Below are positions 30,922 to 62,115 of a stretch of 64,000 nucleotides of DNA, piece after piece; the first letter of the stretch is position 1, and each line of letters begins with the position of its first letter. The position numbers and the translations under genes are program-made. The notes beneath the pieces were generated by a model, which was given only the letters and a program-made list of their open reading frames with translations, did not search any database and was not told the DNA's origin. Origin of the DNA: Candidatus Peregrinibacteria bacterium (GTDB taxonomy: Bacteria; Patescibacteriota; Gracilibacteria; UBA1369; JACRIC01); NCBI GenBank assembly GCA_016188705.1, contig JACPHH010000014.1, positions 1-64,000 of the forward strand. Reading direction: 5' to 3'.

Positions 30922-31087
30922 GGGAACCTCTGAAAAACGTACCATCTACTGCAATTTTACCATGTTGGCTGCAAAATGTTCAAAGCTCCTCAACGTATCT
31001 TCTCTGATACGCCTTCGTCGCTTTTCACATTTTTCGCTCGACATGGTAAAATTTCGTTACGAAGTTACGTTTTTCAGAGGTTCCTTA
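30922..31087. repeat. Family A palindromic element (short subtype)
   Basis: gggaacctctgaaaaacgtaccatctactgcaattttaccatgttgg ... cgacatggtaaaatttcgttacgaagttacgtttttcagaggttcctta; overlaps the aroC 3' end. Confidence 0.95.
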
Positions 31088-32157
31088 GCATTTTTCATCC
31101 GTAAAATGTGATCGGCAAGGACAATGGCCACCATGCTTTCCGCCACAGGAATAAGACGCGGAACAATGCATGCGTCGTGGCGACCTTCGATTTTTAGCGG
31201 CGTTTCGCCTCCGTCTTTTGATACGGTTTTTTGCGTTTTTAGAATGCTTGAAGTGGGTTTTACCGCAATTCTCATAACAATATCTTTTCCGTTTGATATG
31301 CCTCCTTGAATGCCTCCTGAGTGATTGCTACGTGTCGTTATTTTTCCATGTTTCATGGTAAATTCGTCGTTATTTTCTGATCCTGTTTTCGTTGCTCCTT
31401 CGAAACCGCTTCCAAATTCAATGCCTTTTACGGCCCCGATGGACAAAACGGCTTTCCCTATATCCGCCTCCAATTTGTCGAAAACAGGTTCTCCAAGTCC
31501 AATCGGTGTGTTTTTTATAATAATTTCAACAATGCCGCCAAGCGAATCTCCCTCTTGTTTTTTTTTGGCAATAAGCTCTTCCATGAGTTTTGCGATTTCG
31601 AGATCCGGGCATCGCACGACATTTTTTTCGATATTTTTTAGCAGGATTTTTTCTTGTGGCATCAACATTTTGATGTTTCCAATTTGTTTCGCATAGCCAA
31701 TAATGTGAATTTTGAATGGTTCGAGTATTTTTTTCGCAACTGCTGCCGCGGCGACTCTGGCCGCGGTTTCACGCCCTGAAGACCTGCCGCCTCCACGATA
31801 ATCCCGTATGCCGTATTTCGCTTCATAGGTAAAATCAGCATGGCCAGGTCGATATACATTTTTTAGAGGAGCGTAATCTTTGCTCATTTGATTTGCGTTT
31901 CGTATAAGAATGGCTATAGGGCTTCCGAGTGTTCGATTTTCAAAAACACCCGAAAGAATTTCAGGCACGTCGGGTTCTTTTCGAGACGTAGAAATGACAT
32001 TCGATTTCGGTTTTCGACGATCAAGTTCTTTTTGAATGTCTTCCACTTTTAAAAAAATGCCTGCGGGACAGCCGTCAATGACGACCCCAAGAGCTGGTCC
32101 GTGTGATTCACCAAAAGTAGTGATGCGAAAGATCTGACCAAAAGTATTTCCGGCCAT
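31057..32157 (-). CDS. aroC: Chorismate synthase
   Basis: FRITTFGESHGPALGVVIDGCPAG; RPGHADFTYEAKYGIRDYRGGGRSSGRETAARVAAAAVAKK. Confidence 0.96.
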   Translation of the reverse strand: MAGNTFGQIFRITTFGESHGPALGVVIDGCPAGIFLKVEDIQKELDRRKPKSNVISTSRKEPDVPEILSGVFENRTLGSPIAILIRNANQMSKDYAPLKNVYRPGHADFTYEAKYGIRDYRGGGRSSGRETAARVAAAAVAKKILEPFKIHIIGYAKQIGNIKMLMPQEKILLKNIEKNVVRCPDLEIAKLMEELIAKKKQEGDSLGGIVEIIIKNTPIGLGEPVFDKLEADIGKAVLSIGAVKGIEFGSGFEGATKTGSENNDEFTMKHGKITTRSNHSGGIQGGISNGKDIVMRIAVKPTSSILKTQKTVSKDGGETPLKIEGRHDACIVPRLIPVAESMVAIVLADHILRMKNAKEPLKNVTS

Positions 32158-53230: not shown

Positions 53231-53304
53231 CCGCCGCTATTGTTTTTTATTCAGATAAAAGAGGGCGGGGACTCCATTTTCGCTACGCTTCGCTATGCGC
53301 TCAA
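53231..53304. repeat. Half copy of the 41918 hairpin element
   Basis: ttttttattcagataaaagagggcggggactccattttcgctacgcttcgctatgcgctcaa, matching 41904-41964. Confidence 0.88.
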
Positions 53305-53832
53305 GTTGTTATGTTTTGCCAAAGAGGAGAGCGTATTTAAACATTTTATTTCATCATGTTTTGTTTCATTTTTTAGAATAAGGTCAGCCGTTTTTATATA
53401 TGTGTTTTTTCTTTCGTTCCATACATTTTCCAGCTCATCGAGAAAATTTGTCGAGTGAATTGTTTTATGGGATTGAAGAGCAGGACGCGACGTGTCGTTT
53501 TTGAGCCGTTTTCGTATAATTTCGCATGAGCATTTTAATACAATTATCATGCCATTTTTTTTTAACATTTTTGCATTTGTTTCATCCATAAGCGTTCCTC
53601 CGCCGGTTGCTATAATGCATCCATCAGATTCAGCAATTCGTTTTGTGATTTTTTTTTCCAGTTTTCGAAAATAATTCCAGCCGTATTTTTTTACAATATC
53701 GGCGATTTTTTCATTCGCGTCCTTTTCGATTTCGTCATCCAAATCAATAAAAGTGGATTCAAGCTTTTTTGCAAGCAATCGTCCGAGCGTGGTTTTTCCC
53801 GTCCCTCTCATTCCCGTGAGAATAATGTTCAT
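53293..53832 (-). CDS. aroK: Shikimate kinase
   Basis: NIILTGMRGTGKTTLGRLLAKKLESTFIDLDDEIE; IIATGGGTLMD. Confidence 0.95.
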   Translation of the reverse strand: MNIILTGMRGTGKTTLGRLLAKKLESTFIDLDDEIEKDANEKIADIVKKYGWNYFRKLEKKITKRIAESDGCIIATGGGTLMDETNAKMLKKNGMIIVLKCSCEIIRKRLKNDTSRPALQSHKTIHSTNFLDELENVWNERKNTYIKTADLILKNETKHDEIKCLNTLSSLAKHNNLSA

Positions 53833-55130
53833 ATTTTTTCGTTAAGGCATTGTAACAAAGTCAATTGTACACCGATACTTTCCAAATCTTTCCAAAACAG
53901 TGGATAAGTTTTCGCAACACATTTTGGATTTTTGATCACCATGCCTGGAATTTTTGTCGCGGCTGCGGCAAAACACATTGCCATTCTGTGGTCTTTGTAC
54001 GTTTCGATTGTTGCTCCATGAAGATTATCTGGATTTCCATGAATAATGAGTCCATCAGAAGTTTTTTTTACGTGACAACCGATTTTTTCAAGTTCTTGAA
54101 AGAGAGCAAGCAGTCGATCTGTCTCCTTATATCGAAGATTTTTCAGTCCTTGTAAATGACTTTCGCCTTTTGCGAAGGCGCATACTATTGCCGTTGTCAT
54201 CGCGGCATCCGGCATGATATTGAGATCGATTTTTCCGAGATTTTTGAGTTTTTTCGGGCCACGAAACATGAGTGTATTTTTTTTATATTCGTACGTACAG
54301 CCCATTTTTTTTAAAATATTCAGAAATTGAAAGTCTCCTTGAGCGGAAAATGTAATATCACGCGCAATAATTTCGGCATTGTGAATCGCCGCAATGGCAA
54401 GAAAATAGCTCAGGGAAGACGCGTCGGCAGGTATGGCATATGTAGAGGCTTGATATGTTTGTTTGGGTTTAATTATAAAGGTCGCGCTGAGTATTTTTTT
54501 TATTTTTACGCCAAAATGATCCATGATATCGATTGTTGTATCAATATAGGATGCAGAAGTTATTTTTTCTGTTATTTGAATAGTCGTTTTTTTTTCAGCG
54601 TAAGGCGCAGCAATAAGAAGCGCTGAGATAAATTGGCTGCTTATATCGCCGCGAATGATTGTTTTTCCGCCAACTAATCCGCATCCGTCAATAATTATTG
54701 GAGGACAGCCATTTTCGCATTGCACATTGGCGCCAAGTTGATTGAGCGCGTCTACAAGATCTCCAATGGGACGTTTTAGCATCTGTTTATTTCCGGTAAT
54801 GACGGATTTGAAATGTGTCAAAGTGAGTACGCTTGTGAGAAATCGCACCGCGGTTCCGGCATTTTCCAAAGAGAGCGCTTTTTTCGCAGAAGTAAAATGT
54901 CCTTTTTTTCCTTTGATTATAAGATTATTTCCATGTTTGGTTATTTTTATGCCGAGATTTTTGAGCGCATGAATAGTTACCAAAGTGTCGTCTGAAATGA
55001 GTACGTTTTTTAAGATACTGGTGCCTTTGGCGAGCGCGGCGAGTATGAGAGCTCGATTGGTATAACTTTTAGAACTCGGGACACGTATGAAAAATTTTTT
55101 GAGTCGAGTTGGCTTGATGGAAATGGACAT
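53829..55130 (-). CDS. aroA: 3-phosphoshikimate 1-carboxyvinyltransferase
   Basis: VPSSKSYTNRALILAALAKGTS; LENAGTAVRFLTSVL; DISSQFISALLIAAP; KDHRMAMCFA; the first 14 aa of the ORF track translate repeat sequence. Confidence 0.95.
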   Translation of the reverse strand: MSISIKPTRLKKFFIRVPSSKSYTNRALILAALAKGTSILKNVLISDDTLVTIHALKNLGIKITKHGNNLIIKGKKGHFTSAKKALSLENAGTAVRFLTSVLTLTHFKSVITGNKQMLKRPIGDLVDALNQLGANVQCENGCPPIIIDGCGLVGGKTIIRGDISSQFISALLIAAPYAEKKTTIQITEKITSASYIDTTIDIMDHFGVKIKKILSATFIIKPKQTYQASTYAIPADASSLSYFLAIAAIHNAEIIARDITFSAQGDFQFLNILKKMGCTYEYKKNTLMFRGPKKLKNLGKIDLNIMPDAAMTTAIVCAFAKGESHLQGLKNLRYKETDRLLALFQELEKIGCHVKKTSDGLIIHGNPDNLHGATIETYKDHRMAMCFAAAATKIPGMVIKNPKCVAKTYPLFWKDLESIGVQLTLLQCLNEKI

Positions 55131-55139
55131 GGTTTTTTT

Positions 55140-55320
55140 GTGCGGTGAAGAATTTGCAGCCAAAATTTGCAATTACAGTAGAAAAGATATTTTTTTTAAG
55201 GCTCCTTTAAAAGTTGGCGTGGTTTTGGTGAGTTGTCTCATGCAGTGGAACGTTGTTCAGCGTTTTCGTTCGAATTTTGCAATTTGCAGTAGCAAGCATA
55301 TTTATCAAGATTTTCTAAGG
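55140..55320. repeat. Degenerate family A palindromic element between aroB and aroA
   Basis: tttgcagccaaaatttgcaattacagtagaaaagata...gttcagcgttttcgttcgaattttgcaatttgcagtag. Confidence 0.65.
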
Positions 55321-56534
55321 CGAGTTTTTGTCTCGTGTTCATTTTTGAGAACGCTTTTAATATCTTCATTTTTAATGTCGGTTACTATTTCCGCATGGCC
55401 TATTTTTTTTACTATGATCCAATTTTTTTTACCGTTGTGAAATTTTTTATCATGATGAAGTGTTTTCATAAGAGCGTTTTTATCGATTTTTTTTGGCAGA
55501 GATGTATCGATTTCAAAGGTTTCTAAAAGGCGTTGGATTTTTTCCGAGTCAATTTTTTCCATCCATTTTTTTTTCACGGCGATTTTGTTGATAAGAATGA
55601 TTCCTTTGGCTACGCAAATGCCGTGAAGGAGACGATAATTCGTGACTTGCTCAATGGCATGACCGAGTGTGTGTCCGTAATTTAACAGCATGCGAATATT
55701 ATTTTCTTTTTCGTCTTTTTCTATAACGCGAGCCTTAATTTTGCAAGACTGAATAATTATTTTATTCATTATTTCGTTTTTTATTTTATTTTCATCATTT
55801 TTTTCTGAATTTTTTGAACGAAGAATAGTGTTAATGTTTTTTTCATGATTTTTTGTGTTCGCCATTAAATGATTATTATTTTTCGCATTTTTCGCGTTGA
55901 AAATAGCATGAGCGTTTTTTTCTAAATAATCAAAAAGCTCGGCATCGCGGATAATGGCGTGTTTTATGACTTCCACCACACCGTTTTGTATGTGTTTTCG
56001 GGGCAAGGTTTGTAGAAAAAACGTGTCAATATAGACTTTTTTCGGTTGATGGAAGGTTCCAATCATATTTTTCGCCAAACTGTTATTCACGCCGGTTTTT
56101 CCACCGATTGAGGAATCGACCATTGCGAGAAGCGTCGTAGGAATTTGAATGTATGGAATTCCCCTCATAAAAATAGAAGCTACGAATCCGGCTATATCGC
56201 CAATAACTCCACCTCCTAATGCCACAATCATCGAAGATCGATCGCAGCTTTTTTTTGTCATTTTATTGATGATTTTTTCAATTGATTGGAGATTTTTTGA
56301 TGTTTCACCTGATTTTAGCGCGATAATGCTGGTTTTTAGACCATGTTTTTTACATTTTTTTAAAATTTTTTTTCCATGAAGTTTTTTTACCGTATGATCC
56401 GTGATGATGATATATTTGCTCGCTGGAAAATGTTTTTTGAGTTCATCCGCTATACTGTTCATCATATTCGTTCCAATGACGATGGAATACGAATGATCGA
56501 TTTTTTTTTGGAGTGATATAATATGTTTTATCAT
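55305..56534 (-). CDS. aroB: 3-dehydroquinate synthase with Asn/Lys-rich insertion
   Basis: VALGGGVIGDIAGFVASIFMRGIPYIQIPTTLLAMVDSSIGGKTGVNN; LLNYGHTLGHAIE. Confidence 0.95.
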   Translation of the reverse strand: MIKHIISLQKKIDHSYSIVIGTNMMNSIADELKKHFPASKYIIITDHTVKKLHGKKILKKCKKHGLKTSIIALKSGETSKNLQSIEKIINKMTKKSCDRSSMIVALGGGVIGDIAGFVASIFMRGIPYIQIPTTLLAMVDSSIGGKTGVNNSLAKNMIGTFHQPKKVYIDTFFLQTLPRKHIQNGVVEVIKHAIIRDAELFDYLEKNAHAIFNAKNAKNNNHLMANTKNHEKNINTILRSKNSEKNDENKIKNEIMNKIIIQSCKIKARVIEKDEKENNIRMLLNYGHTLGHAIEQVTNYRLLHGICVAKGIILINKIAVKKKWMEKIDSEKIQRLLETFEIDTSLPKKIDKNALMKTLHHDKKFHNGKKNWIIVKKIGHAEIVTDIKNEDIKSVLKNEHETKTRLRKS

Positions 56535-57556
56535 GATTTTATGGTGAATTTTCGTCTTACCGCAGGGGCGATGACGGCTATTTCTTTGACGAGCTGTTCA
56601 AATGTATCGGTCGTTATGGATTGATCTCCGTCGCAAAGCGCTTCATCGGGTTGCGGATGAACTTCGATAATGAGTCCGTCGGCGCCGGCTGCAATAGCGG
56701 CACGCGCCATTGGAGGCACGAGCGTCCTTTTTCCCGTTGCATGGCTTGGATCCGCTATAATCGGAAGATGACTCAGCTCTTTTATGAGAGGAATGGAATT
56801 GAGACCAAAAGTGTTTCTTGTTTCTTGCTCGAAAGTGCGGATACCACGTTCGCAAAGCATAATTTCAAGGTTTCCTTTTGCCATAATACGTTCAGCGGCA
56901 AGGAGTAGTTCCGTTACCGTGGAAGAAAGTCCGCGTTTTAAAAGTATGGGTTTTTTTACGGATCCAACTTCATTAAGGAGTGTGAAATTTTGCATATTTC
57001 GAGCTCCGATTTGAATAATATCCGCATATTCCATAATAAGATCGATGTCGCGAATATCCATGAGTTCCGTAATGACGGCAAGTCCATGGCGGTCCGCGGC
57101 AGCCCGAAGGATTTTTAGGCCATCTTTGCCTAATCCTTCAAAAGAGTAAGGTCCTGTGCGCGGTTTGAATGCTCCTCCTCGAAGAATTTTCGCGCCGGAT
57201 TTTTTTATCGAACTTGCTGTTTTTTCCACTTGATCCTCATTTTCTACGGCGCAGGGACCTGCCATGATTGCAATTTCTTCGCTTCCTATTCGAACACCGT
57301 TTACTTCAATAACCGTGTTTTCGTATTTGGTTTCGCGGCTCGCGAGTTTGTAAGGTTTGAGAATAGGATGAACGTCGCTCACTCCTGGAAGCGAACGCAG
57401 GTGGTGAATGTCGAGAATCCGTTCATCACCGATGACCGCGATAACGGTTCGTTCCGTTCCGATGAGTGGCACTGGTTTTAAACCTTGGGTAATCATTTCC
57501 TGTATAACATGATCGATGAGCTTCTGTTCAGCCTGTCGACGCATAACGATAATCAT
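56531..57556 (-). CDS. aroF: 3-deoxy-7-phosphoheptulonate synthase (type I-beta, N-terminal ferredoxin-like domain)
   Basis: IAIMAGPCAVENEDQVEKTA; ILRGGAFKPRTGPYSFEGLG; PIIADPSHATGKR. Confidence 0.95.
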   Translation of the reverse strand: MIIVMRRQAEQKLIDHVIQEMITQGLKPVPLIGTERTVIAVIGDERILDIHHLRSLPGVSDVHPILKPYKLASRETKYENTVIEVNGVRIGSEEIAIMAGPCAVENEDQVEKTASSIKKSGAKILRGGAFKPRTGPYSFEGLGKDGLKILRAAADRHGLAVITELMDIRDIDLIMEYADIIQIGARNMQNFTLLNEVGSVKKPILLKRGLSSTVTELLLAAERIMAKGNLEIMLCERGIRTFEQETRNTFGLNSIPLIKELSHLPIIADPSHATGKRTLVPPMARAAIAAGADGLIIEVHPQPDEALCDGDQSITTDTFEQLVKEIAVIAPAVRRKFTIKS

Positions 57557-57799
57557 ATTTGACGGGGTTAAAGTGTGAATTTGACGTGCGCGGTTTTCAG
57601 TTACCGTGAAGTTTTTTTTGTTTGATTGTTTTTTATCGCCAAAGGCAATAAAAGTTGTTTTTTGTTTGTTGCCAAAGTCGATAAAGATAGTCTTTTTTTG
57701 TGCCAGCGAATGCGTGTCGCGATTGATTTTTTATGAAGTTTTCGCGTTTTTTCTCGCGCAGGAAGGATTGTAACATGGTTTTTTTTCATTAAATAATAA

Positions 57800-57824
57800 A
57801 AATCCCCGCTCTAATGCGCGAGGA
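57800..57824 (-). terminator. Attenuator terminator of the aro operon leader
   Basis: TCCTCGC-gcattaga-GCGGGGA stem then TTTTTATTATTT. Confidence 0.88.
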
Positions 57825-57860
57825 GTATATGGATCAGGAATACTTGAAACTACCTCGCGC
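57816..57860 (-). promoter_or_regulatory. Mutually exclusive antiterminator (GCGCGAGG 57860-57853 with CCTCGCGC 57823-57816)
   Basis: 8-bp perfect complement; the 3' strand overlaps the terminator 5' strand and the 5' strand abuts the leader stop codon. Confidence 0.85.
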
Positions 57861-57969
57861 AGGTCAGAGGATAAAAATAGAAACCCCAAAATGATATGAC
57901 GTTTTGTTTCGATTTCGTGTCGAAATATTTTTGGTTTTTTATCTTATTTTTTTGCCTTTCCAAAGTCAT
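57850..57969 (-). CDS. Attenuation leader peptide MTLERQKNKIKNQKYFDTKSKQNVISFWGFYFYPLTCAR
   Basis: ATG ~35 nt downstream of the predicted TSS; F-W-G-F-Y-F-Y cluster immediately before stop and attenuator, upstream of aroF; no clear SD. Confidence 0.8.
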   Translation of the reverse strand: MTLERQKNKIKNQKYFDTKSKQNVISFWGFYFYPLTCAR

Positions 57970-58011
57970 TTTTTTGAATATTTTTTCGAAATATATGGCT
58001 TTCACGATTGT

Positions 58012-58040
58012 ATTATATTGAAATATCCATTTTTTTTCAA
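58012..58040 (-). promoter_or_regulatory. Sigma70-type promoter of the aro leader/operon
   Basis: Minus strand TTGAAA-17 nt-TATAAT. Confidence 0.85.
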
Positions 58041-58052
58041 GTTTTATTTTTA

Positions 58053-58081
58053 TTGACATTTTTTTAAGATATGTTTATCAT
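58053..58081 (+). promoter_or_regulatory. Divergent sigma70-type promoter for the 58170 ORF
   Basis: TTGACA-17 nt-TATCAT. Confidence 0.65.
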
Positions 58082-58169: not shown

Positions 58170-59393
58170 ATGTCTAAAGATCATGCATCAGGTGGCTTAA
58201 ATATTGAAAAAGATGGTTTGGATGGTCAAGAAAATTATGGTCTTACTGTTAAAGATTTTGATGGTACGCCCGATGGCATGCCTCAATCCGATGAAGAAGC
58301 CATGCAACTTTTAATCGAGAGTGATGGCATTTTGAATGATGTTTTACAAAAACTGAGAGAAGTTGATTTTAAACCAAGTGATAGGGCTCTTCAAGGTGTA
58401 ACTGATGCTTTTCAAACAGCGCGTCGAGAATTATCATCTTCCGAGACAGTTAATAGAGATGGTTCGCAAGGAATATTTTCTGATAAAGTTAACGGTTTTA
58501 AGAGTCGTTTTCGACTTCGTCTTTTAAGAAGAGTAGTATCGAAAGTCCAAGGGGGTTTAGTCGATTTAAAAGATGCTGTCCAAATGCGTTTTTTTAGTGC
58601 TCAACCTATTGATATTCGAGTTGCCTCATTAATTACAAAAGCCGTTGAGTCTTTTCAACAGGTAAGAGATAATATTGATCCCCTGATGGAATTATCGGCT
58701 CAATTAGATTCGGATTGTTTATTAATAAGAGCAAAGTTTGATCTTGTTGGATTGTATATTTCTTCTCATCGAGAAAAAAGCCCATCTCCCTCCAGAAATA
58801 AGCTTTTAGCAATGCTTGCCAAAAGAAATGCAGGATTAGCCTTATTATATAAACAATCTAGATTTTTGAGAAAAAATATAGAAAATAGAATGGTTGTAGT
58901 AGATTTGTTATCTGCGGATTTGCCGTTCCTTCAATCTTGCTTGATGATTTCTGGCGGAATTGCCCAGGGCGCTGCTGAACTCGCTGCTCTGGAAACAATT
59001 ATGCAATCTCTTTATGAGCTTAATAATACGCTTGTTCTCGTTAATGCTGAAATGAGTGGAAGAAATGAACAAGACGCGCTTCGTCTTGTTGGGGCAACTG
59101 TTTTTGATGAATTAACTATGCGAAAATTAGAAGAGATTAATGCACGAAATGATAAACTTTTTATTGAAGCCATAGAAGACGCAAGGAAGCGATTGGACGG
59201 CGCTTTAAGAATGTCTTTACCTTCCTTGTCTGAAGGTTCTGCTGGAGTCATTGATGGTTTATTTTCTCTAACAATATCAACTTCTCGCTTTTTAGGTTCT
59301 TCGTCTGTCGTTGAGGGTGAAAAAAGGGGAGGGGGATATCCAATAAATGCGGTTGCAGAAGAAAAAATTAAAGGAGAAGAGGGAGAAGAATAA
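58170..59393 (+). CDS. Hypothetical protein, 407 aa
   Basis: Long ORF, helical composition; no recognised family. Confidence 0.75.
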   Translation: MSKDHASGGLNIEKDGLDGQENYGLTVKDFDGTPDGMPQSDEEAMQLLIESDGILNDVLQKLREVDFKPSDRALQGVTDAFQTARRELSSSETVNRDGSQGIFSDKVNGFKSRFRLRLLRRVVSKVQGGLVDLKDAVQMRFFSAQPIDIRVASLITKAVESFQQVRDNIDPLMELSAQLDSDCLLIRAKFDLVGLYISSHREKSPSPSRNKLLAMLAKRNAGLALLYKQSRFLRKNIENRMVVVDLLSADLPFLQSCLMISGGIAQGAAELAALETIMQSLYELNNTLVLVNAEMSGRNEQDALRLVGATVFDELTMRKLEEINARNDKLFIEAIEDARKRLDGALRMSLPSLSEGSAGVIDGLFSLTISTSRFLGSSSVVEGEKRGGGYPINAVAEEKIKGEEGEE

Positions 59394-59514: not shown

Positions 59515-62115
59515 ATGGAATCATCTTTTTCGAAAATTCGTCCTTTTTCTTCTCATGAAAACCCCTTTGTTTCAGCCGAAGAACGGGAGCGGTGGCAGTA
59601 TGTGTTCTATGGAGAGTGGTTTTTTGACCTTGAAATAGACGATGAGTATCGAGAAAGAGTTGGTTTGCTTGAAAATTTTGTTCAAGAAGAGAAAATCGTT
59701 TCCGAACCCATGGGTGTTATTTTGGATGTCACAAGAAATGAAACAGAATTCATTGTGGCAGTAAAAACGAAACAGGACTCTCAAGTGGCGATGGAAAAAA
59801 TTATTGAAATTAAGAAAAAACTTGAAGAAAAACATGGATGTCTTCTGCGTGATGGTTATATGGCGGAAAATATTGATAGTTTTTTTGAGAATGATTTTAG
59901 TAGTGTAATGAGTCAGTGCCCTGAAGCATATCTTGTCGAAGCTCGCGGGAGACGAGTTATACTTCAATCACAAAAAATTATACGCTGGAGGCTCGAACGA
60001 GCTCTTGCACGTCAACAAAGGGTCGAACGAATATTAGAAGATTCACCCGGAGGAACTTCTCAAATTCATGAACAAGGAGAAAGTGATACCTCATCTTCTC
60101 CTTTCATTGCTTTTTATCGACAACAGGTAGCACGGCAGATTTGCGCACTTCAAAAAGCTCTTCAACTTATAGAAATAACGATGCAGAAGACTGACGAACC
60201 CTTAAAATTTGGAGGTATGCTTACAGACACACAGAATATATCCAGATTTCCGATTCCAGAGATTGTGCCTTTGTCTTCAATAATGTCTTCAGCATCACTT
60301 CGAGATACATCTTCTGATCACCAGGAAGTAAATCCTTCTCTATGTTCCACGGTTGGAGATATTTTAGAACATCCCCTTATTCAAGCGGCTGTGCGAAAAG
60401 CTGTTCCTCAATCAAGAGAAACACATGAAATTACACTCATATATCTCCTTTCCACGGAAGAAGGGACCAGAATACTGCTGAGACATCTTAAAGAAATCGT
60501 AGATCGCATTCAATCGATCCAGAGAGAAAAGAGCGTTTGTGATGATGAACAGTGGGAGGATCAAAAATCGCGTGCGCTTAAAGGACTGGATGCTTTGCGT
60601 CGTTATGTTCGAACGTATCCTCGAGAAAAATTTAGTACGGAACTCAAGGCTCAACGTCTAAGGGACTTGAAATGTCCTGAAACATTGGTTGATGATGCCA
60701 GTATGGAAATTCCCGGATCGAAAGAGCAGAATTCCTCTTGTTTGCCTTTTGGAATTCAGGAATTCCGTTCACCATCGGGTGAAACTTTCTATTTTCAAAA
60801 AGATTCAACAGGGACCTTTTTACCAGCAATCTACAAAAATAAAAAAATAAAAAAGATACAATATTGCTCTATTTCTTTTTCAGAAATTACAGAAAAGAAC
60901 AGAGGATATGCCATTATAACAGAAGATGATCATGGTTATTTCGTAGATGAAAGCACTGGGGTTATGCAGGAATTCGCTCAAGCCTATTGTAGCGCCGTTA
61001 CAGGCGATTTTTTTTATCAGACAGAAAAAGATGGTTCTTGGTATCATGATGGTTGTATCGTAGAACCTGTGTTGACTCGAGAAAAATCACGTGCGGATTC
61101 AAATGAAACTGTTGACCTTGTCATTATCAGTCTTAAAGGGAAAAAAGAAATTATTATACCCGAAGGAATGAGTAAGGGCGTATGGAATATAGGAAATCTT
61201 ATCTGTTACACTCCACATACAGCTAGCTCTGCTTTTCCTAATTGTATTTTTGATGTGAATTTAGATCCTGTGATGATAGATGAGGAAATAGGATGTCAGA
61301 TAAGTGAAATTTTTACCTTTGGTGAAAGAACATGGGTACGTCTAGAATCTGCTGGTATGTTATCACGGGCAGCAATAATAGATGCCGAAACAGCAAAATG
61401 TACTCGAGTAGTTGATTCAAATTTCGGATTGCCTAGCACTTCACGAATTCCATCATTCTTACAGATTTCTTCTGAAGCTGAATGCGTTAAACAGGATCCT
61501 CGGACTCCTCAGATGAAAAGACAAAGTTTCACCATTACATGTCCTATTATGCCTGTTCCATCATTTTTTGGACGACCAGCTTTAATTAATCTTTCAAGCT
61601 ATAATCAAGAAGAAGGCACATTTCAAATCGTCCGTATTCAAGGTATTCAAGGCGAACATATTGAAAATTTAGAAGAAGCTTTTTATTGGGGGTTAGAAGC
61701 AGCTTTTGATCCTAATAAAACGTCTTCATTCCTTAAACAAACTATGCCGAATGAAATTTTGGGATTCAGAAAAGCAAAAATAAAAAATGATGTCCTCATG
61801 GTGGATATGGATTCTTTTGATCCAGAAAATTCCACTCTAAAAATGATTACAGTCGAAGATATGCCTGGTTTTATAACTTCCATTGAACCGGTGGTTAAAA
61901 TAAGATCTTTCGGAGAAAAAATAAGAAAGTTTAGAGTTGTTCTTTCTCAAAAGAATGCTACAACAGGAAAAAGAGATATTGTGACGATAGTTTTTTCTGT
62001 GGAAAATTATGATCCCGAGACATGTATGATTCGAGGTTCGAAAGATCTTGTGATACAGAGAAGGGGTTGGGGTTTTTTTGCAAAAAAAAGGGCGTTATCA
62101 TATTTAATACATTAA
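59515..62115 (+). CDS. Hypothetical protein, 866 aa (paralogue 1)
   Basis: Long ORF; N-terminal PFSSHENPFVSAEERERWQYVFYGEWFFDLEIDDEY shared with the next ORF. Confidence 0.85.
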   Translation: MESSFSKIRPFSSHENPFVSAEERERWQYVFYGEWFFDLEIDDEYRERVGLLENFVQEEKIVSEPMGVILDVTRNETEFIVAVKTKQDSQVAMEKIIEIKKKLEEKHGCLLRDGYMAENIDSFFENDFSSVMSQCPEAYLVEARGRRVILQSQKIIRWRLERALARQQRVERILEDSPGGTSQIHEQGESDTSSSPFIAFYRQQVARQICALQKALQLIEITMQKTDEPLKFGGMLTDTQNISRFPIPEIVPLSSIMSSASLRDTSSDHQEVNPSLCSTVGDILEHPLIQAAVRKAVPQSRETHEITLIYLLSTEEGTRILLRHLKEIVDRIQSIQREKSVCDDEQWEDQKSRALKGLDALRRYVRTYPREKFSTELKAQRLRDLKCPETLVDDASMEIPGSKEQNSSCLPFGIQEFRSPSGETFYFQKDSTGTFLPAIYKNKKIKKIQYCSISFSEITEKNRGYAIITEDDHGYFVDESTGVMQEFAQAYCSAVTGDFFYQTEKDGSWYHDGCIVEPVLTREKSRADSNETVDLVIISLKGKKEIIIPEGMSKGVWNIGNLICYTPHTASSAFPNCIFDVNLDPVMIDEEIGCQISEIFTFGERTWVRLESAGMLSRAAIIDAETAKCTRVVDSNFGLPSTSRIPSFLQISSEAECVKQDPRTPQMKRQSFTITCPIMPVPSFFGRPALINLSSYNQEEGTFQIVRIQGIQGEHIENLEEAFYWGLEAAFDPNKTSSFLKQTMPNEILGFRKAKIKNDVLMVDMDSFDPENSTLKMITVEDMPGFITSIEPVVKIRSFGEKIRKFRVVLSQKNATTGKRDIVTIVFSVENYDPETCMIRGSKDLVIQRRGWGFFAKKRALSYLIH

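Follow-up and report, generated by a model that had tools for sequence, protein, structure and literature searches.

A predicted leader-peptide attenuator with Phe, Trp and Tyr codons ahead of the shikimate operon aroF-aroB-aroA-aroK in a small-genome bacterium

How might a bacterium with a small genome adjust the entry into its aromatic pathway to the supply of the end products? The question is raised by the DNA upstream of a cluster of aro genes in the window, the whole stretch of 64,000 nucleotides analysed here. A first-pass annotation, made from the letters alone, had read the cluster as an operon aroF-aroB-aroA-aroK under the control of a leader peptide, and matches to Pfam bear out the identity of all four genes:

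56531-57556, minus strand: aroF, DAHP synthase I with a ferredoxin-like N-terminal regulatory domain, 341 aa (PF00793, PF18152)
55305-56534, minus strand: aroB, 3-dehydroquinate synthase (DHQ synthase; PF01761, PF24621)
53829-55172, minus strand: aroA, EPSP synthase (PF00275)
53293-53832, minus strand: aroK, shikimate kinase (PF01202)

The genome is 1.37 Mb in an assembly that is 94.65% complete, and phylum-sample genomes with a match are ~0.8 to 2 Mb. No match to uL30 was found in 89 genomes of the window's order, as against 13 of 14 control genomes with one. CPR bacteria have small genomes and are without uL30, and both features of the present genomes fit the CPR/Patescibacteria. Divergent from the aro operon are genes for two large proteins of 407 aa (58170-59393, plus strand) and 866 aa (59515-62115, plus strand), neither with a Pfam match.

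The promoter, the 39-codon ORF, the segment at its stop codon, the complement of that segment and the overlapping terminator described in the first-pass annotation are all found where it had placed them, together with a second small ORF that it had not listed:

58012-58040, minus strand: putative sigma-70-like promoter TTGAAA-17-TATAAT, 11/12 consensus match
57850-57969, minus strand: leader ORF1, 39 codons, ending SFWGFYFYPLTCAR then stop
57871-57891, minus strand: regulatory codons F W G F Y F Y within ORF1 (SFWGFYFYP)
57853-57860, minus strand: region 2, GCGCGAGG, antiterminator 5' arm, overlapping the last ORF1 codons
57816-57823, minus strand: region 3, CCTCGCGC, antiterminator 3' arm, common to the terminator 5' arm
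57798-57824, minus strand: intrinsic terminator, TCCTCGC-loop-GCGGGGA followed by TTTTT (stem 57824-57803)
57809-57803, minus strand: region 4, terminator 3' arm
57633-57776, minus strand: ORF2, MLQSFLREKKRENFIKNQSRHAFAGTKKDYLYRLWQQTKNNFYCLWR, between the terminator and aroF, a conserved small ORF in relatives

TTGAAA (58040-58035) is followed by a 17-nt spacer and TATAAT (58017-58012); this candidate promoter fits the consensus, but the DNA is A+T-rich and has 11 such sites where 3.3 are expected. ORF1 (57969-57850) translates as MTLERQKNKIKNQKYFDTKSKQNVISFWGFYFYPLTCAR and then stops. The frame has a further ATG at 58059, but this is upstream of the promoter, and for this reason the 39-codon version is the relevant reading. 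No Shine-Dalgarno sequence precedes ORF1, nor does one precede the window's aroF. Region 2 (57860-57853) stands directly before the TAG stop of ORF1, and region 3, 29 nt downstream, is its exact complement. The terminator sits between ORF1 and the first structural gene and overlaps the antiterminator in one arm, so that the two are mutually exclusive. A terminator scan found three terminator-like sites (0.5 expected), and just 2 of 200 shuffles of the 86-nt region fold as well as the native sequence (z = -3.1).

These elements very probably make up a ribosome-mediated transcription attenuator that gauges the charging of Phe-, Trp- and Tyr-tRNA and controls aroF-aroB-aroA-aroK. A ribosome would translate ORF1 while RNA polymerase transcribes the leader. 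With charged aromatic tRNAs at hand it would reach the stop codon and cover region 2, leaving region 3 to form the terminator with region 4. A stall at an F, W, F, Y or F codon would instead leave region 2 free to pair with region 3, whereby the terminator would be blocked and the operon transcribed. Translation of ORF1, termination and readthrough in the cell and a response to starvation are what we infer from this layout. Judged by their sequences, the aromatic leader and the terminator are almost certainly a switch that would turn the pathway on when Phe, Trp or Tyr is short.

The geometry of stalling was modelled by folding the RNA outside the ribosome for every A-site position; the model is purely thermodynamic and assumes that the ribosome covers 15 nt counted from the first base of the A-site codon. 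With the A-site at F57891, W57888, F57882, Y57879 or F57876, the region 2/region 3 antiterminator is predicted; with the A-site at Y57873, at later codons or at the stop, the terminator is predicted. The switch point of the model thus falls between the fifth and sixth aromatic codons, and the stall logic of the first-pass annotation stands for five of the six aromatic codons and for the stop but not for the last Tyr, which gives the terminator. In the ribosome-free leader the minimum-energy form is the antiterminator. A 1:2 protector or pause hairpin is not evident: at none of 29 loci does region 2 have an upstream partner as strong as region 3, the best upstream pairing having a mean score of 10.8 against 18.7 for region 3. 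As no such protector is evident, an untranslated leader is expected to read through. The leader is not assigned to the enteric four-segment trpL subtype, in which the protector permits termination even when the leader is untranslated.

An ordinary terminator next to a chance aromatic-rich frame would offer a much simpler account, since A+T-rich DNA yields many Phe and Tyr codons and promoter-like matches are as frequent here as noted earlier. Conservation bears directly on it. A search of 90 genomes of the window's order found AroF in 62, and 52 same-order loci qualified for counting by including the N-terminus of AroF and sufficient sequence upstream. An ORF with at least five aromatic residues among nine near its end, then a terminator, occurs in 31 of these 52 upstream regions. 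The same combination appeared in none of 1040 dinucleotide shuffles and, of the 52 reverse strands, on one. Because the loci share kinship, the counts are not independent. Reading by eye added leaders that the scan had missed (L048, L069, L073, L082 and L087-L089). Typical leader ends read WGFFYFYF, WAFFYFYF, FWAYFYF and WNNFYFYFF. Phe, Trp and Tyr are all present in 22 of 30 distinct leaders and Phe and Tyr only in the other eight, so the three-aromatic composition to which the first-pass annotation drew attention holds for the window and is common rather than universal. A+T richness does not favour the Trp codon TGG, and its presence in those 22 leaders speaks against chance, as do the shuffles and the partner-specific pairing of regions 2 and 3 described below. 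Fortuitous features are thus exceedingly improbable and, at the level of sequence, already refuted by conservation.

To examine the pairing, region 2 of each locus was scored with its own region 3 and with those of the other loci. Cognate pairs score 18.0 on average and permuted partners 11.9 (sd 0.86), the maximum of 5000 permutations being 14.7, a figure that is not a strict probability as the loci are related. The arms change together from locus to locus, as in GCGCGAGG/CCTCGCGC, GCATGAGG/CCTCATGC, TACCTGAGG/CCTTAGGTA, GTGAGGA/TCCTCAC and TGGGGC/GCCCCA; L077 has no region 2/region 3 helix at the cut-off. When relatives are compared, as the first-pass annotation had advised, aromatic codons and stems are kept together and the stems carry two-sided changes. 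A direct DNA alignment with L043, the sole same-family relative, was set aside because the leaders are of unequal length and were misaligned.

The same data weigh on the view that the RNA is read directly by a tRNA or metabolite (a T-box or riboswitch) or by a protein, the ORF being incidental. Such an element could likewise present a terminator with an alternative antiterminator ahead of genes for amino acid synthesis. What is conserved, however, is a peptide and not an RNA fold: synonymous codons alternate at the conserved aromatic residues (TTT 90 and TTC 33; TAC 34 and TAT 28), and the spacer between the antiterminator arms is visibly not conserved. Moreover, no Rfam family matches at threshold, and the T-box is absent among Rfam matches up to E = 5. 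A directly read RNA is therefore very improbable. Three sub-threshold Rfam matches (snoRNA-like, L10 leader) were dismissed as chance.

The distribution of the leader reaches past the window's order. Short leaders such as MKINNFYYFGFYFEAR and MNMNNWYFFGFYFETR occur in other orders of the class, and in other classes of the phylum an aromatic leader stands at 7 of 7 aroF loci sampled, for example MQNSSHNFYFYFYFTNPGGARG. Several aroF genes of the same order have no leader, and these appear to be mostly second copies or genes inside another gene cluster. Six second copies of DAHP synthase (L091, L096, L098, L101, L104 and L105) probably sit inside trp operons, because the sequence upstream of them reads like trpC or trpF and none has its own aromatic leader. 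Among the non-relatives that a search by AroF similarity brought up, most are without an aromatic leader. One of them, L025, has a weaker leader candidate. In the Chloroflexi record L035 an aromatic leader (MQTYNSFYFASFYFY...) and a terminator lie ~480 nt upstream of aroF; over the stretch ~590-450 nt upstream the reading is a leader MQTYNSFYFASFYFYGSP... and a terminator, then a start reading MTIRG, putatively chorismate-mutase-like, before aroF. From this record, the leader type may reach beyond the phylum.

A further layer of control is suggested by ORF2. Its end reads DYLYRLWQQTKNNFYCLWR in the window and CLYRLWQNS in the same-family relative, and across the order (loci L043-L086) it starts 24 to 41 nt past the terminator stem and has LYR-, AYR- or AYQ-like ends. 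Many ORF2s are preceded by a TTAACC-like stretch that is also found before aroF starts in relatives. Tandem leaders with dual control, ORF1 acting on transcription and ORF2, with a Tyr codon near its end, on a translational step at aroF, are a tentative possibility. Of 24 loci, 22 have an ORF2 of at least 15 aa, as do 20.8% of shuffles, and 16 have a Tyr motif that 1.6% of shuffles show, although this motif was defined after inspection and the test is post hoc; the window's ORF2 misses the motif solely through the greater distance between its LYR and the stop. Where ORF2 can be read in one family of the class, it is Tyr-rich (MHFNKFGYYRFY, MHFRLNYYRRGYRY); a helix of 11 to 16 bp, varying on both sides, is found at 7 of 8 loci of this family, its 3' arm immediately before the probable start of aroF. 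Perfect or near-perfect long helices lie ~45-130 nt upstream of the aroF match at L127, L130, L131, L132, L134, L135 and L139, where a translational attenuator is possible. ORF2 and the helices together suggest a translational layer at aroF. Against dual control, the window's own order has no conserved helix at ORF2, the conserved Tyr codon of ORF2 is single and some loci with ORF1 have no ORF2. A yet bolder version, in which a two-tier switch with Phe/Trp/Tyr charging read by ORF1 for transcription and Tyr charging read by ORF2 for aroF translation is an old arrangement in the phylum, is unlikely; if true, both the mRNA supply and the translation of the pathway's first enzyme would answer to the end products.

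The attenuator proposed at ORF1 has a counterpart in the same genome. Upstream of its trpE gene lies a Trp-only leader, MMTRNNKNWWWINTSEQLRR (L215, G000:C25, ~2310-2430), followed by a separate terminator, and trpE of several same-order relatives has WWW or WW leaders. This Trp-only leader is a specificity control for the three-aromatic leader of aroF. The fold model is less clean here, as the first of the three Trp codons alone gives the antiterminator as the minimum-energy form. There is no such leader upstream of aroC in the window (31057-32157), and the PDT (pheA-like) genes of relatives have no convincing one, isolated aromatic-rich ORFs only. A chorismate mutase gene was found in the window's genome; prephenate dehydratase was not detected in the 94.65% complete assembly, while the same-family genome has one.

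Gene regulation in small-genome bacteria of the CPR/Patescibacteria type is hardly studied. The leader indicates that coupled transcription and translation sense amino acid supply in such bacteria, and that several classes of the phylum use this sensing where they have retained aroF. It would be a natural leader pooling three end-product signals at the entry of a common pathway, and with the Trp-only trp leader it offers, in one genome, a ready pair for relating codon choice to specificity.

The mechanism class itself is already known, with precedents in the aroR leader of Corynebacterium glutamicum and the ilv leaders. What is new is the joint Phe/Trp/Tyr specificity, usual though not constant, at the head of a shikimate operon, together with the spread over several classes of the lineage, the small ORF in tandem and the fact that no protector hairpin is evident. 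The first-pass annotation knew of no example described in such a lineage, and in a search of open-access papers (subscription papers being outside the scope) none was found that joins leader-peptide or transcription attenuation with these lineages; a DAHP-synthase attenuator is, however, known elsewhere. In the aroR leader of the C. glutamicum aroF operon (Neshat et al. 2014, summarised in PMC11802643; PMC4046766), attenuation precedes the DAHP synthase gene, the motif is Phe-Tyr-Phe, the response is reported to be to limitation of Phe and not of Tyr, and no Trp codon is reported. Both leaders place Phe and Tyr codons before a DAHP synthase operon, a likeness in working, common descent aside; unlike the actinobacterial leader, the present one usually has F, W and Y, and its aroF heads aroF-aroB-aroA-aroK.

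With E. coli trpL and pheL the leader shares end-product codons, a mutually exclusive antiterminator and terminator and a region 2 near the leader stop. Those leaders, however, each sense mainly one amino acid of a terminal branch, and they have the 1:2 protector or pause hairpin that is not evident in the aroF leader. In the ilvGMEDA and ilvBN operons of E. coli and ilvBNC of C. glutamicum, one leader is read by several end products of a shared pathway, as would be the case here, although the ilv leaders sense branched-chain amino acids and belong to another pathway with other sequences. Attenuation in ilv operons is mentioned in PMC1183508 and PMC11857589. Closest at hand is the trpE leader of the same genome, which likewise has a leader ORF, a terminator and an antiterminator segment at the stop codon but, unlike the aroF leader, carries Trp codons only (WWW) and lies downstream of a coding sequence judged by eye to be TrpR-like.
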